Origin: Komagataeibacter saccharivorans
GTDB taxonomy: Bacteria > Pseudomonadota > Alphaproteobacteria > Acetobacterales > Acetobacteraceae
Assembly (NCBI RefSeq): GCF_003207825.1
Contig: NZ_NKTY01000016.1
Location: 1-64,000, forward strand
Length of the DNA stretch: 64,000 bases
Direction: 5' to 3'
Positions 6,957 through 48,943 of this stretch are shown here, one piece after another. Within the stretch, counting starts at the first letter, position 1. The number at the start of each line of letters is the position of its first letter. Under the pieces are notes generated by a model. The model searched no databases, was not told the origin of the DNA, and was given only the letters and a program-made list of their open reading frames with translations. The position numbers and the translations under genes are program-made.

Positions 6957-7576
6957 AATACGGCCCTTCCTGAAATGGTGATGGTTTAAATTGAAACAAC
7001 AGCGCGACCGCAGCGGAGTTTCTTTTTGGCGTGACAGAATATCACGTCATAACGCAGTCCCGCCGGGTCATGACCTTCCGGCTTTATTTCCTGCCCGCGC
7101 CGCGGGATCAGGGGGAATGCAGCCGCGCAAAAGATGGGGCGGGCGCAGGGCGGTTTTTCTGTAACGATAAATAAAATTCATAAAAACCATAAAAAGACGC
7201 GATTAATACTTTATTCATTTCATGAAGCCCTCCCCCCCGATCCGCCGCGCGGGCGATACGGAAACCCGGCATGGGCAGGGTGCAGGGCAGGGACCGTATT
7301 ATTTCACGCCATGTCGTGCCCGGTAACAATATGCCACATTCCCCTGCATAGAACGGTTTGATAAACGCGACGTTATGCCCCCGGGCACGCAGCCCGCTGC
7401 CCTGGGGGCAGATGACCATGACTTCAGCCCCGCTGGGGGCTTCGATACCCCGGCACGGCAGGAAAGATCACCACGGGCCGGGATCAGGGGCATCCCTGCA
7501 TCCGGGTGTGCGTAGATATTACAGGAAATACAATCTCTCACCAGGCAGTATAACAAACCTGTCCAGGAGAAAATCC
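6957..7576. promoter_or_regulatory. AT-rich intergenic region upstream of mucR
   Basis: About 620 bases between the divergent mucR and glycosyltransferase genes. A strongly AT-rich tract at about 7160-7225 stands out from the GC-rich surroundings and is the kind of sequence MucR proteins bind. The frame of the downstream glycosyltransferase is open through part of this region, but nothing there resembles a protein domain. Confidence 0.5.
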
Positions 7577-42665: not shown

Positions 42666-42996
42666 GTCTTTTTCCCAATCTGCGCGACCCCGATGCGGGG
42701 TGCCGCGTGTTATAACGAGTCTGCCAGACTATATCCGTTCCGCCCGCGCATAGAAGCGGGCAGGGGCGTTTATTATTGCAATACTGACCTGCATTGCGCC
42801 GTTTCTGGATGTTGATGGCAGGTTGTGTGGTTTTCTTTGTTTCGGAACAGTAAAAGTCATTCCAGACCATAATGAAGCGCATGACAGGATTGATCTGCGT
42901 CACGGCGGGCGGGGATCGCTGGCCGCAGCATCCGTCATGCAGGGCGGATATGCCCCGGAATAGACCGCTCCGGTTATGTATTTTAGGAGAATGACC
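42666..42996. promoter_or_regulatory. Divergent gap between WYL-like and Hsp20 genes
   Basis: About 330 bases that should contain both promoters. It is more AT-rich than the phage genes. No heat-shock-type (sigma-32) promoter could be recognised with confidence. AGGAGA at 42985-42990 is the Hsp20 ribosome binding site. Confidence 0.4.
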
Positions 42997-43467
42997 ATGA
43001 TTGCGCGACCGACATTTGTTGCGACGCCAGTACGCACGGCCACGGCGCGGGTGGCGGACCCGTTTGCGGTGCTTCAGCGCCAGGTGGGCAGGCTGATTGA
43101 TGATTACCGCGCGCCCGATACCTTCGGTTCGGGCCGTATCGGGGCCACGGATATTACCGAGGACGCGGCAGGCTACCACATCTATATCGAAGTGCCCGGC
43201 TGTTCGGACAGGGACATCACGCTTAACGCCAGCAATGGCGTGCTGAGCATTTCGGGCGAGAAGAAAAGCCCGCTGGCCGAAAGCGACCACAAGCAGCACG
43301 TATCCACCCGCAGCTTCGGCGCCTTTGCCGAACATTTCAGCCTGCCCGAAGGCGTGGATGAGGACCGGATCACCGCCCGCATCAAGGATGGCGTGCTGCA
43401 TGTCACCCTGCCGCGCCGCGAACCGGCAAAGCCGAGCGAACGCAGGATCGAAATCCAGCCCGGCTGA
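42997..43467 (+). CDS. Hsp20 / alpha-crystallin small heat-shock protein (cargo)
   Basis: A 156-residue small heat-shock chaperone that holds unfolding proteins. The alpha-crystallin domain is clear: ATDITEDAAGYHIYIEVPGCSDRDITLNASNGVLSISGEKKS, RSFGAFAEHFSLPEGVDEDRITARIKDGVLHVTLPR. The N-terminal arm is MIARPTFVATPVRTATARVADPFAVLQRQVGRLI and the tail KPSERRIEIQP carries the IxI motif. AGGAGA six bases upstream picks the ATG at 42997 over 42991. It lies inside the baseplate operon and is not a phage structural gene. Confidence 0.92.
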   Translation: MIARPTFVATPVRTATARVADPFAVLQRQVGRLIDDYRAPDTFGSGRIGATDITEDAAGYHIYIEVPGCSDRDITLNASNGVLSISGEKKSPLAESDHKQHVSTRSFGAFAEHFSLPEGVDEDRITARIKDGVLHVTLPRREPAKPSERRIEIQPG

Positions 43468-43848
43468 CCGGCCTGCACGCTTCATATTTCTTAAGGGGCT
43501 GAAATGGCCCCGATCCGGTTTTACAGCCGCATGCCCCGTGCATGCGGCTGTATGCGTCTGGGGACAGGGATGCCGCACCCTGTTTCCCCCTTTTCCGCGC
43601 CCACCATGTCGTGCCTGTCCGCATGCCCGCCCGGCGGGGTGTGTTCCCGTGGCTTTTATGGGGCGTCCGTTCCCTGCGCGGTTCGGTCCGCCCCTGCGCT
43701 GGCCGTGGCCCGTCGGGGCCGTTTCATGCCGTAGCGCAATGCACGCATCAGCACTGGCGATGTCGCAGCCTGCGCCGGTATTGCGCGCCGTCAGCGCGTG
43801 TTTTCTGAAAAAACAGGATTAATCACCCTAACCAAGACGGAGGGCCGC
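43468..43848. other. Gap between Hsp20 and gpJ genes with hairpins
   Basis: About 380 bases without a convincing gene. GGGGC/GCCCC at 43495-43511 forms a small hairpin after Hsp20, and a perfect 12-base stem, TACAGCCGCATG at 43522-43533 with CATGCGGCTGTA at 43541-43552, follows. Neither has a strong T-run on the plus strand. The interval ends with CGGAGGG, the gpJ ribosome binding site. Confidence 0.45.
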
Positions 43849-44973
43849 GTGGCCATCACGTTCCAATCCTTCAAGACCACGCTGGGCAATATGGTGGCCA
43901 GCGCGCAGGGCGCGTGTCCCGCGCTGCTGGACCTGAATGTGGGGTCCGCCGGTCGCGCCATGCTGGAAGCGGTTGCGGGGCTGGGGCTGTGGTTCCAGTT
44001 CATCGCGCTGCAGATCCTATCCCGCACGCGGCTGGCGACATCCACCGGCGCGGACGTGGACAGTTTCGTGCAGGATTTCGGCCTGTCCCGCCTGCCGGGC
44101 ACCACCGCCACGGGCATGGTCACCTTCACATCCTTTTCCCCCGCCAGCCAGTCGGCCACCATCGCGGCTGGCGATACGGTCAAGACGGCATCCAGCCTTG
44201 TTTATGACGTGGTTGAAGACAGCACGAACCCGGCATGGTCAGCGGCGCAGAACGCTTATATCCGCCCCGCCGGGACAGCATCCATCACGGTGCCCGTGCA
44301 GTGCGAAACCACCGGCGCGGCGGGCAACGTGACGGCGGGGGCGGTCTGCCTGCTGGGCACGGCCATTTCCGGCATCGACACCGTCACCAACACCGCCGCC
44401 CTGACCAATGGTAGCGACGGCGAGACGGATGCAGCCCTGCGCACGCGGTTTGTCGCCTATATCAACAGCCGGTCCAAGGCCACGATGGCCGCGATCGAGA
44501 ACGCGGTGACGGATGTATCCGCCGACCTGATCTATCAGGTGGTGGAGAACATCGACACATCCGGCGCGGCGCTGCCGGGCAATGTGGTGGTATATGTCGA
44601 TGACGGGTCGGGCGATGTGGCCGATGCGGTCATCGTGCAGGTCTACACATCGGTCGATGCGGTGCGGCCCGCCGCCGTATCCGTTCAGGTGGTACGCCCC
44701 GATGTGGTGCGCCCGGCGGTGGCCATGACGGTCAGCGTGAACGGCACCGGCGACCTTGCCACGGTGGACGCCACGATCAGCACCAACATTGCAACCTACC
44801 TCAACGGTCTGGCTATCGGCGATGCCGCCAGCTATTCGCGCCTGATCCAGATCGCCTACGCCGCCAGCACATCCGTTACCAACGTGACCGGCGTGACGCT
44901 GGCCGGTGGCGTTGTGGACCTGCCTGCGACAACCGGCACGGCCTATCGGGCCGGGGCGGTGGATTTTGGCTGA
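43849..44973 (+). CDS. Baseplate protein J-like
   Basis: A 374-residue J-like baseplate wedge protein. It has FQSFKTTLGNMVASAQGACPALLDLNVGSAGRAMLEAVAGLGLWFQFIALQILSRTRLATSTGADVDSFVQDFGLSRLPGTTATGMVTF, the Baseplate_J opening, and the central GSDGETDAALRTRFVAYINSRSKATMAAIENAV signature. A GTG at 43849 preceded by CGGAGGG is the likely start; an upstream open stretch lacks a good start. The 3' end overlaps the gpI start. Confidence 0.88.
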   Translation: MAITFQSFKTTLGNMVASAQGACPALLDLNVGSAGRAMLEAVAGLGLWFQFIALQILSRTRLATSTGADVDSFVQDFGLSRLPGTTATGMVTFTSFSPASQSATIAAGDTVKTASSLVYDVVEDSTNPAWSAAQNAYIRPAGTASITVPVQCETTGAAGNVTAGAVCLLGTAISGIDTVTNTAALTNGSDGETDAALRTRFVAYINSRSKATMAAIENAVTDVSADLIYQVVENIDTSGAALPGNVVVYVDDGSGDVADAVIVQVYTSVDAVRPAAVSVQVVRPDVVRPAVAMTVSVNGTGDLATVDATISTNIATYLNGLAIGDAASYSRLIQIAYAASTSVTNVTGVTLAGGVVDLPATTGTAYRAGAVDFG

Positions 44974-45631
44974 TGTAACCCCCAATGGCTTCGCCCTGCG
45001 CATCCGCGCACTGCTGCCATCCGGCTGGTTCCCCGCGCCACCCGCCACGGGGCAGGTGGAGGCCGCACCCGTCCTCAATGCCGTGTTGCAGGGTTTCGGC
45101 AATCTGTCTGCGTGGGTGTGGGCCCTTCTTGCGGGCACGAATGACCAGACACGGCTTGCCAGCATGAGCGGGGCGTTTCTGGACATGTTCGCCGCCGACT
45201 TTTTCGGCACCACCCTGACCCGCGCCGCAGGCGAGGGTGATGACGCCCTGCGCACCCGCATTGAGGAAGCGCTGTTCCCCTCGCTGGGCACGCGGCCTGA
45301 TGTGGTGAATGTGCTGGCCGATGAACTCGGCACGGCCGGGCGCGTGATCGAGCCACGCAACGCCACCGACTGCAAGGGGCTGGGCAGCGTCACCAGCCCG
45401 GCCACCGGCGGGGGATATGGTTACGGGACACCGGGGCTGAGATACGGGTCGCGCCATGCCCCGTTCCGGCTTTTCGCCCAGTTGCCGACAGGGGACACGG
45501 ACGCACCGTCCCCACAGACGATGGCCAGGATTGCAGCGGTGCTGCCAGCGGGCACGATTGCATGGGTACAATGCACGCCTGTAGCGATAGAAGCTGAAGT
45601 CAATAATGATTTCGGTGGAGATATTTCATGA
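44966..45631 (+). CDS. Tail protein I-like
   Basis: A 221-residue protein following J, in the place of P2 gpI / DUF2313-type baseplate proteins. It reads ADVTPNGFALRIRALLPSGWFPAPP, then FGNLSAWVWALLAGTNDQTRLASMSGAFLDMFAADFFGTTLTRAAGEGDDALRTRIEEALFPSLGTRPDVVNVL, with features common to gpI-like wedge proteins. The start is a TTG at 44966 inside the end of the J gene. The stop shares ATGA with the start of the beta-helix spike gene. Confidence 0.72.
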   Translation: MADVTPNGFALRIRALLPSGWFPAPPATGQVEAAPVLNAVLQGFGNLSAWVWALLAGTNDQTRLASMSGAFLDMFAADFFGTTLTRAAGEGDDALRTRIEEALFPSLGTRPDVVNVLADELGTAGRVIEPRNATDCKGLGSVTSPATGGGYGYGTPGLRYGSRHAPFRLFAQLPTGDTDAPSPQTMARIAAVLPAGTIAWVQCTPVAIEAEVNNDFGGDIS

Positions 45632-47079
45632 GAAACGTTTTCCTTGCGACCGCCCTGTGCGCGCTGCCCGTTGCGGCCGGGGCGCAGTCCATGCCGGACT
45701 GGCAGTCCTATCAGGCGACGGGAAACCCCGGTGCGATGGTCCGTTCCGCCGGAACAGCGGACAGCGTTGCGGCATGAATGGGGAAAAAGGTCGATGTGAA
45801 TAGCGGCAGGATCAATGCGCCTGTCCTCAATGGCGGGAATGAAACCTTTGAACCAAAGGATATTCCGGGCGCCAGCGGCACCGCCATTCCCAACACGTTC
45901 TGGGTCGACAGGTATTACAGCCCGAAATCGTGGTTCATAACCGCGAATACGACATGGAACGTATGTGCATCGGGCTGCCCCTACACCAATCCGCTTGATG
46001 CGTGGAATGCGGCCCTGCATGCCACGTTCCTCAATGGCGCATGGCTTACGATCAGCATTGCGGACGGCACCTACAACATCAGCAACCAGTTCTTCACCAA
46101 CGTCACGCGGACACAGTCCGTGCAGGTTGTGGGGGACACCGCCAACCCGGCGAAGGTGGTGCTGAATTTCACGGGCACGAAGGGCACCAACACAGGGGGC
46201 TTCACGGCCTATGATGGCGGCAGGATCGGCCTGATAGACGGCGTGACCATTCAGGCCCCGACCGATGGCAGCGCATCGCTGGCGTCCACGGACCCGGCAG
46301 GACGGCATATCTGGAATTCGCAGAGCTACGGCGGCGGCATACAGGCATATGGCGGCGGGTCGAACATCCATGTCGGCAGCCATGTGGTGATCCGCAACTT
46401 CTACTATTCCATGGTGGCGGACAATAATGGCGTCCTCAACGCGCCCAACGGGGGTGTGACCATGTCCGTGGCGGGCGATGTCAACGCCATGGCGCGTGGC
46501 GGCGGCGTGATTGTATGCACGCCGTGTGCGGCAACCGATGCCAGCGATTACAGCTATCCCGCCATCACGCTGGGGTCCAATTACGATGCCGAACGCGGTG
46601 GCTCGCTTTACATCGACGGGTCCACCGGGTCGAAATCACTCGTATCGGGCGTTGTCGGCCTGACGGGCGGCCATATCTGGGCGCACAACATGACGCTGAG
46701 CGGCGCGCTGATCGCAACGCAGGGGCAGGGGGCGTGGATTACCGGCAATGCATCGGCCGAATTCAGCGGGTCGAACATTTCGGGCTACAATATCGGCGTC
46801 AATGCGGTTAACGGCGGCTATGCCAGCGTAGACAGCACCAGCATCCACAATAACAGGCTTGCTGGCATTACCGCCGATGGCGGGCGCGTGACGGGTGGTT
46901 CCGCAACCATCACGAACAACACGACATACGGCATACAGGCCCTGCATCAGGGTTCGGTCGTGCTGTTTGGCAGTTACGCCCGGATGAGCGGCAACGGGAC
47001 GAATTTTTCCGTGCAGCCCGCTGGCATCCAGAACGTGTCCGGCACGGCCTATTCGGCTTCCAGCATAGATGTCCAGTGA
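45628..47079 (+). pseudogene. Beta-helix tail spike with signal peptide, interrupted by in-frame TGA
   Basis: The ATG at 45628 overlaps the gpI stop and opens a 49-codon frame: MRNVFLATALCALPVAAGAQS (a Sec signal peptide with a likely AGA-QS cut), then a linker ending GTADSVAA. A TGA at 45775-45777 stops it, and the same frame continues at once with an ATG for 433 residues (GKKVDVNSGRINAP...). SVAAxMGKK resembles the SVAAR/K junction of phage spikes, so TGA probably replaces an Arg codon. The long part is a right-handed beta-helix (pectin-lyase-like) with repeated Gly/Asn/Ser rungs, like tail spikes that bind or cut polysaccharide. Reinitiation at 45778 could still make it, without the signal peptide. 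Confidence 0.75.
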
Positions 47080-47173: not shown

Positions 47174-48943
47174 ATGGATAGGCAGATCGTGTACCCTGCC
47201 CAGATTCCGATGGACAGTGACCAGTTGAATGCCCAGCGTAACGCATATGTTGGCATGGGGCATCTGGCTGGCATGGCGTATGGTCAGGCCACTGTCGCGG
47301 CGTCCGGCTTCGCCTGCGCACCGGGAACTGGTCTGGCGCTGATCATGGCGCCCGGATCGCTGATTGCGCCGGGTGTTGTCGATGCGTCGTCTTACGGCAC
47401 GCTGGCGGCAGTCCCGAGTACGCTCGTGCGCCAGTATGTCAGCCGCGACCCGGTCACGCTGGATGTGCCGGGGGCCGGGGCTGCCCATACCGTGTATGTC
47501 ACCCCCGTTACGCAGGATGCGGACGATACGGTGCTGCCGTTCTACAATGCGGCAAACCCGTCCGTGACCTATGCGGGGTCGGATAACAGCGGGGCCACTG
47601 CGCCCACCGTGCGGCAGGATCTGGCGCAGCTGGGGATTGGCGCATCCGTTCCCTCTGGCGCATACCCGCTGTGGACCGTGACGGTGCCCGCGGGGGCTTC
47701 GGCCATTACGGCGGATATGCTTACGCAGGCGGTGGGCGCGCCGTTTTACGACACCATCCCGCAGCTACAGGCCGCCAAGCAGGACGCGCTTGGCTTCACC
47801 CCGGTCCAGCAGGGCGGCGGGCCGGATCAGACCGGCGACAAGGTCAGTCTGGGGCAGGACGCCAGCTATCCGGGGATAATGCGCGTCAGCGTCAACGGGG
47901 GTGATGCGGGCGGCCTGCTGTCGGGAACGTATGGCAAAAGCGCCCCCGACTACCAGATGCTGGGGCTTTACCAGCAGTCCACCACCGGGCGTCCGGTCGC
48001 GGTGTTCAATAACGGCACGACGACCGTTTACAATGGCATCGCCAACTACACCGACGTAACGGGCGAGGCATCCGCCCGGCAGGATGCCGATACGGCGATC
48101 CAGACAAACCTGACCACGGCGATCGGCAACCAGTCGGACATAAACTGCACCCTGTCGTCTGACATCAGTAACTGCGTTTCCGGGATATATGGAAAAGGGA
48201 CCAGCGATTACCAGATACTGGGTCTTTATTTCCAGACCAGCACGGGACGCCCCATTGCCGTATTCAGCAACGGCACGGCGAACGTGTTCAATGGCATTGC
48301 GAACTATACTGATGTCACCACGCTCCAGACCAACCTGACATCATTCCAGACACAGCAGGCCGATACGAACAGCGTATTCGCCAGCGGGATTGCATCGCGT
48401 GTCCCGACAAATGCTGAAAATGACGGGGTGAACGCGCCCATCACGCTGTTCAACTATTTCGTGGGCGACGGCACCCCGTGGGCCAGTGCGAACGGGGTCA
48501 GTTTCTCGCTGGTAAAAAGCGCGCCGGGGACGGGGTTCAACAAGGTCCTGAACATCAGCACCGATGGCGCGGGCAACCTTGTCGTGCCCGACGGTTCCGG
48601 CAGGACCAGCACATATGCCCCATGCAGTGCCGCGATAACATCGGGTACGGTGTCGGTTACGAAGATCGGTGATCTGGTTATCCAGACGTTTCAGGCCTCG
48701 ATCGCCAATCCGAATAATGGCGGCGCGGGCTGCGTGAGCGTTACCCTGCCGCAGGCCCTGACGCAGTCCATCCAGTTTTCAAAGGGCAATGCCCTTGGCG
48801 GGACGCAGGGCGGCACGCTGTGGATTCCGTCCGTCAATGTCGTTCCGTCCTCCCTTACCGAAGTCACCATTTACGCCGATAACCTGCAGGACCTGAACTG
48901 GACCGCCGCCGTCACGGTTCAGGTGCTGGTCATCGGTTCGTAG
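47174..48943 (+). CDS. Tail fibre protein
   Basis: A 589-residue tail fibre. The N-terminus MDRQIVYPAQIPMDSDQLNAQRNAYVGMGHLAGMAYG and the following beta-rich part (LIMAPGSLIAPGVVDASSYGTLAAV) resemble phage fibre base regions that attach to the baseplate. A tandem duplication of about 47 residues is visible (each unit: SGxYGKxxxDYQxLGLYxQxxTGRPxAVFxNGTxxVxNGIANYTDVT), roughly 47920-48060 and 48180-48320. The C-terminal 120 residues are a likely receptor-binding domain. AAAGG ten bases before the ATG at 47174 supports this start; a GTG at 47156 is an alternative. Confidence 0.85.
   Translation: MDRQIVYPAQIPMDSDQLNAQRNAYVGMGHLAGMAYGQATVAASGFACAPGTGLALIMAPGSLIAPGVVDASSYGTLAAVPSTLVRQYVSRDPVTLDVPGAGAAHTVYVTPVTQDADDTVLPFYNAANPSVTYAGSDNSGATAPTVRQDLAQLGIGASVPSGAYPLWTVTVPAGASAITADMLTQAVGAPFYDTIPQLQAAKQDALGFTPVQQGGGPDQTGDKVSLGQDASYPGIMRVSVNGGDAGGLLSGTYGKSAPDYQMLGLYQQSTTGRPVAVFNNGTTTVYNGIANYTDVTGEASARQDADTAIQTNLTTAIGNQSDINCTLSSDISNCVSGIYGKGTSDYQILGLYFQTSTGRPIAVFSNGTANVFNGIANYTDVTTLQTNLTSFQTQQADTNSVFASGIASRVPTNAENDGVNAPITLFNYFVGDGTPWASANGVSFSLVKSAPGTGFNKVLNISTDGAGNLVVPDGSGRTSTYAPCSAAITSGTVSVTKIGDLVIQTFQASIANPNNGGAGCVSVTLPQALTQSIQFSKGNALGGTQGGTLWIPSVNVVPSSLTEVTIYADNLQDLNWTAAVTVQVLVIGS

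Follow-up and report, generated by a model that had tools for sequence, protein, structure and literature searches.

We ask why a spike-type gene in the tail block of a prophage from Komagataeibacter saccharivorans should begin with a Sec signal peptide, when the accepted picture is of tailspikes produced and mounted within the cell, and whether the TGA codon that interrupts its reading frame is damage or a switch. The gene lies in a 64,000-nucleotide stretch of DNA (hereafter the window; it is contig C21 in a draft genome of 3.35 Mb and 107 contigs). We favour, at a probability of about one half, the reading that the intact gene encodes a phage-borne, exported, polysaccharide-acting protein of spike type that is released around lysis, and that this gene is broken in the window strain.

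Position of the leader gene in the tail block

The prophage is P2-like, and its tail block carries, in order on the forward strand, gpJ (43798-44973), gpI (44966-45631), the leader gene and a tail-fibre gene (47174-48943). The gpI gene uses a TTG start and encodes a baseplate-like protein (phrog_26379 match, E 2.9e-29), and the leaderless fibre gene shares 60% identity with its phiKX1 counterpart across 370 aa. The earlier note had placed the leader gene at 45628-47079, with its start overlapping the gpI stop and a TGA followed by ATG in the same frame, and these positions proved exact. Its ATG (45628-45630) overlaps the gpI stop (45629-45631), and a likely ribosome-binding site, GGTGGAG (45614-45620), lies inside the gpI codons for NDFGGDI. 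GGTGGAG or GGCGGAG is also found upstream of the starts of two relatives, L102 from K. europaeus and L111, a third prophage whose protein is 75% identical. The 49 codons before the TGA (45775-45777) begin MRNVFLATALCALPVAAGAQS and specify a positive N-region, a hydrophobic core and a likely cleavage site between AGA and QS, so that residues 1-19 (45628-45684) form a predicted Sec signal peptide by a rule-based score. An N-terminal module, P-W-SY-xTGNP-...-GKKxD-..-G (45685-45852), comes next; it is common to other spike-slot proteins with and without a leader and is broken here by the stop. After the TGA, the frame continues from the adjoining ATG (45778-45780) for 433 aa, ends at the stop codon 47077-47079 and contains the predicted right-handed beta-helix domain (about residues 101-483, 45928-47079; AlphaFold2 model mb8031a86d6e1, alignment A6 and fold matches). 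Upstream, between a gp25-like gene and gpJ, an Hsp20-like small heat-shock protein gene was recognised by eye at 42976-43467; it also occurs in the tail block of the sister prophage L110 and is likely a cargo gene.

The gpI stop and the fibre ATG overlap by 1 bp at about 33 other junctions from Komagataeibacter prophages, and the induced phages phiKX1 and phiKX2 show the same overlap. Among the junctions compared, the leader gene occurs only in the window, its two sisters and L111. Since gpI directly abuts the fibre gene elsewhere, we regard the leader gene as an accessory cassette. The junction in L155 holds a different, leaderless insert of 430 residues that is fibre-like (MTGITIPQLPDGATLDDTDLLEIV...), indicating that the junction is an accessory slot. 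The G+C content of the cassette is about 60-61%, versus 65% in gpI and the N-terminal half of the fibre gene. Comparison of junctions also reveals that gpI of the window (within 44966-45631) ends in a C-terminal extension, CTPVAIEAEVNNDFGGDIS, in place of the DVE[NT]xx end seen in relatives that have no cassette.

Origin of the in-frame TGA

Two sister prophages from IMG/VR, 98.7% and 99.0% identical to the window in DNA over 6.9-9.3 kb, were used for allele comparison. Both carry 483 uninterrupted codons of the same length and register, with Trp at the window TGA codon; the window copy is interrupted and the sister copies are open. At the TGA-ATG site, L111 reads Trp then Leu and L102 reads Trp then Ile. 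The earlier note had proposed an Arg codon turned into TGA, and this has to be corrected, as the lost codon is Trp in all readable close alleles. A profile built from relatives matches the two halves of the window gene as a single match of 474 positions with one TGA inside. Together with the sisters being open throughout, this match indicates that the frame common to both sides of the TGA is not due to chance. Between the two sisters there are 11 synonymous differences and none that alters an amino acid, indicating that selection acts there on the entire frame, leader included.

It had also been suggested that the stop is a programmed switch, stop and restart giving a short cytoplasmic form for the virion and read-through giving the exported form. 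An in-frame ATG does stand directly after the TGA, and restart there is physically possible. However, no other allele has the stop, L111 and L102 lack the Met, and no Shine-Dalgarno sequence was found before the ATG at 45778. A product restarted at this codon would also have no leader, and only the second half of the conserved N-terminal module would remain in it. We consider such a switch very improbable. An intact window gene with a sequencing or assembly error at the TGA is quite unlikely too: among the neighbouring genes compared between the window and its sisters in this draft assembly of 107 contigs, the stop difference is confined to the leader gene, but it is a plain substitution at a site with no homopolymer, and the many other differences from the sisters mark the window as a distinct strain. 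From these comparisons, we conclude that the TGA is probably a recent nonsense change that breaks the window copy, an assembly error being less likely. Full-length protein could still arise in trace amounts if near-cognate tRNA-Trp reads through the UGA. In Acetobacteraceae bacterium ESL0709, the homologue (L105/L022) is divided among several frames, which indicates that the leader gene has been lost more than once.

Predicted fold, cysteines and relatives

No Pfam or PHROGs family was assigned to the window protein, and a search of solved-structure sequences with it gave a chance match only. Used alone as a query, it had no match when genome contigs, phages and plasmids were scanned for close relatives; homologues came from profile and family-wide searches. 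A single-sequence AlphaFold2 model reached a pLDDT of 34, and a model based on an alignment of eight sequences was used instead. In the latter, a right-handed beta-helix spans residues 101-466, mostly with pLDDT above 80, and residues 1-100, including the N-terminal module, have low pLDDT. The beta-helix claimed in the earlier note, a call that Pfam alone does not make for this protein, is thus upheld by the model. The closest folds are the C-5 epimerases AlgE6 and AlgE4 (Z 32, 2.5 A over 315 residues), and AlgG, inulin lyases, RbmB and several tailspikes score Z 25-28. A Foldseek list is headed by GH87 glucanases. Fold likeness alone does not prove enzyme activity, and the residues invariant in alignment A6, D265, D284, R290, D307 and E322, could not be matched to a known catalytic site, a point against our reading.

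Two kinds of known protein are comparable in fold. The first, represented by AlgE4/AlgE6 (Z about 32, 315 residues), AlgG, the RbmB lyase and GH87 glucanase, is alike in fold and includes several exported or periplasmic enzymes. These differ from the window protein in sequence (about 10-16% identity) and in that the window gene is prophage-encoded. The second comprises the tailspikes of P22, Sf6 and Dettilon and TSP2/TSP3 of CBA120, which are alike in their beta-helix fold (Z 25-28 for several), tail-gene neighbourhood and modular N-terminus. They are synthesised and assembled in the cytoplasm and are not known to have a Sec leader; the leader gene departs from this trait of beta-helix tailspikes, as its family has a conserved Sec-type leader. 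As for the earlier term "spike", what stands is the beta-helix fold and the position in the tail block between gpI and the fibre gene; spike identity itself we infer from them.

Five relatives lie outside prophages; in K. oboediens and K. intermedius they belong to capsule loci and have ABC2_membrane, Capsule_synth and WavE genes as neighbours. A tree intermixes the phage and host copies: well-supported branches force at least three label changes, and some long branches are unsure. This mixing suggests that the domain probably moved between phages and hosts. The capsule-locus relatives and the enzyme-like fold lead us to favour a protein acting on polysaccharide, although relatives in host loci could serve another function, which counts against our reading. 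Sequence alone cannot tell a decoy from a cutting role.

Four cysteines, C113, C117, C297 and C300, are invariant from Komagataeibacter to Sphingomonas in alignment A6. L111 and L102 each have two more, C382 and C404, where the window type has Ser at both positions; their spacing of 22 residues would correspond to about one helix turn. When cysteines were counted after the predicted leader, an even number was found in 20 of 25 leader-bearing and 3 of 7 leaderless proteins, sets that include related proteins, so that the counts are not independent. The mature cysteines fit an oxidising compartment and appear compatible with disulfide bonds.

Export leader, N-terminal module and destination of the protein

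The earlier note had claimed a Sec signal and had named relatives without such an extension beforehand as the finding that would speak against it. The opposite was seen, a Sec-type leader being present in every readable homologue (L102, L103, L104, L105, L106-L108, L023, L024 and L174). In the window, n-, h- and c-regions are recognisable, with a core hydropathy of 2.56, a charge of +1 and small residues at -3/-1 (rule-based score). By the same kind of score, core hydropathy is 1.5-3.1 in leader-bearing proteins versus 0.4-1.5 in leaderless controls. Among L110, L111 and L102, the leaders are 30-50% identical and the bodies 77-80%, and charge, hydrophobic core and small cut-site residues are kept in L111 and L102 despite this divergence. 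To judge from these alignments, a leader that diverges while charge, core and cut site stay is the pattern of working signal peptides. The leader is conserved as a signal, and export of the intact protein is therefore probable.

These features bear on the possibility that the leader is unused and the protein an ordinary tailspike assembled in the cytoplasm, with a hydrophobic N-terminus that aids docking. Its spike-slot position, its fold like that of the P22, Sf6 and Dettilon tailspikes and the existence of leaderless versions of the module would all suit such a protein. Nevertheless, signal features are conserved while the leader sequence is not, cysteines are paired, L091 has a lipobox-type leader, and host-locus members carry leaders too. 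We regard an unused leader as unlikely.

A post-leader module, P-W-SY-xTGNP-DIV-S-V-G-K-D-GQ, was detected in about 27 of 397 sampled Acetobacteraceae genomes, the weakest matches being uncertain. It precedes many different bodies, and some copies have a leader while others begin at the module itself. Leaderless copies lie in tail blocks (L085, L086, L088 and L090) or after lysozyme (L092). Leader copies follow gpI (the window and L083) or lysozyme (L020, L082 and L176), or lie in head-tail blocks of the P22-like kind (L101; in L108 the leader comes with a different linker), where the spike slot adjoins head-tail adaptor and head-closure genes. L093 and L176 each hold a leader copy immediately preceded by the remnant of a leaderless start, which suggests that the leader module was swapped in. 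Leader-bearing genes of a second tail-block family were also seen (L090 2583-4406 and L091 3874-5541), with the N-terminal motif GGA.S.S..HAPGT.LD.Q...W.Q.I.

Leader-bearing genes also occur in the mitomycin-induced Acetobacter phage phiAX1, whose spike slot contains two of them: one has a match to the module (E 1.4e-5), and the gene after it encodes a Glyco_hydro_66 protein. The latter, PhiAX1_450 (L181 7089-9014, LC644973.1), is annotated from 7194; read from the in-frame ATG at 7089 instead, it gains a clear signal peptide. The same pair of module gene and GH66 gene is found in L089, the GH66 proteins being 46% identical. PhiAX1_450 is alike in being a leader-bearing gene of polysaccharidase type in the spike slot and differs from the window protein in its catalytic domain; judged by its sequence and position, it counts for the exported, polysaccharide-acting reading. 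Separately, phiAO1, another mitomycin-induced Acetobacter phage (L184 30552-33014, LC644971.1), has a late protein of 820 residues with a leader-like N-terminus. Particles of phiKX1 and phiAX1 were mitomycin-induced and are predicted to be incomplete (PMC8566455). In phiAP1, the one phage shown to infect in that study, the genes after gpI include no leader-bearing spike-type protein.

Prophage copies in Komagataeibacter and Asaia combine leader and module, and five host-locus copies have a leader and no module. This presence in phage copies and absence from five host copies supports the strongest rival to our reading, a virion spike that passes through the periplasm: the protein would be exported, disulfide-bonded, trimerised outside the cytoplasm and joined to released particles after lysis by the module. 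The sharing of the module with leaderless tail-module proteins hints at virion attachment and thus argues against our reading, and the P22-like prophages L101 and L108 hold a leader-bearing protein in the spike slot. On the other side, the window lineage has a separate leaderless fibre gene, and L024, an EPS-locus copy, retains a module-like region. We know of no tailed phage that assembles spikes via the periplasm, which also counts against this route. We hold it possible, though short of probable. A broader version, which we advance with somewhat greater doubt, is that spikes of prophages in Acetobacteraceae, and of one Sphingomonas prophage at least, are Sec-exported, disulfide-bonded outside and attached to virions only after lysis, so that the same protein could be both free depolymerase and spike.

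For the exported, polysaccharide-acting protein that we favour, sequence, homology, position, conservation and predicted fold suggest the following course. An accessory cassette would have entered a P2-like prophage at the junction of gpI and the tail-fibre gene. The intact product of the cassette, of 483 residues with a cleavable Sec leader, a short spike-slot module and a right-handed beta-helix, would be produced late, alongside the tail proteins, and sent to the periplasm, where it would fold with disulfides. Released at or before lysis, it may bind or cut surface polysaccharide (capsule or other EPS), so that progeny leave more easily or the lysogen surface is altered. In the window strain, with the Trp codon changed to TGA, the exported form would be lost except for possible read-through.

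A functional Sec leader is known from another late phage protein, the endolysin Lys44 of Oenococcus phage fOg44 (PMC6116005); Lys44 differs in that it attacks the cell wall for lysis and is not spike-type. Our search of open-access literature returned no description of Sec leaders on tailspikes, and this silence is weak evidence of novelty. Within Acetobacteraceae, export signals on spike-slot proteins are recurrent by sequence prediction, and leaders can be overlooked when start sites are annotated, as happened in phiAX1. The recurrence of conserved leaders across several phage types and genera suggests that some phages send spike-slot proteins out first. This would imply either that secreted phage polysaccharidases form a widespread class concealed by "tail" annotations or that there is a new assembly route, and both readings are testable with inducible prophages of vinegar bacteria.
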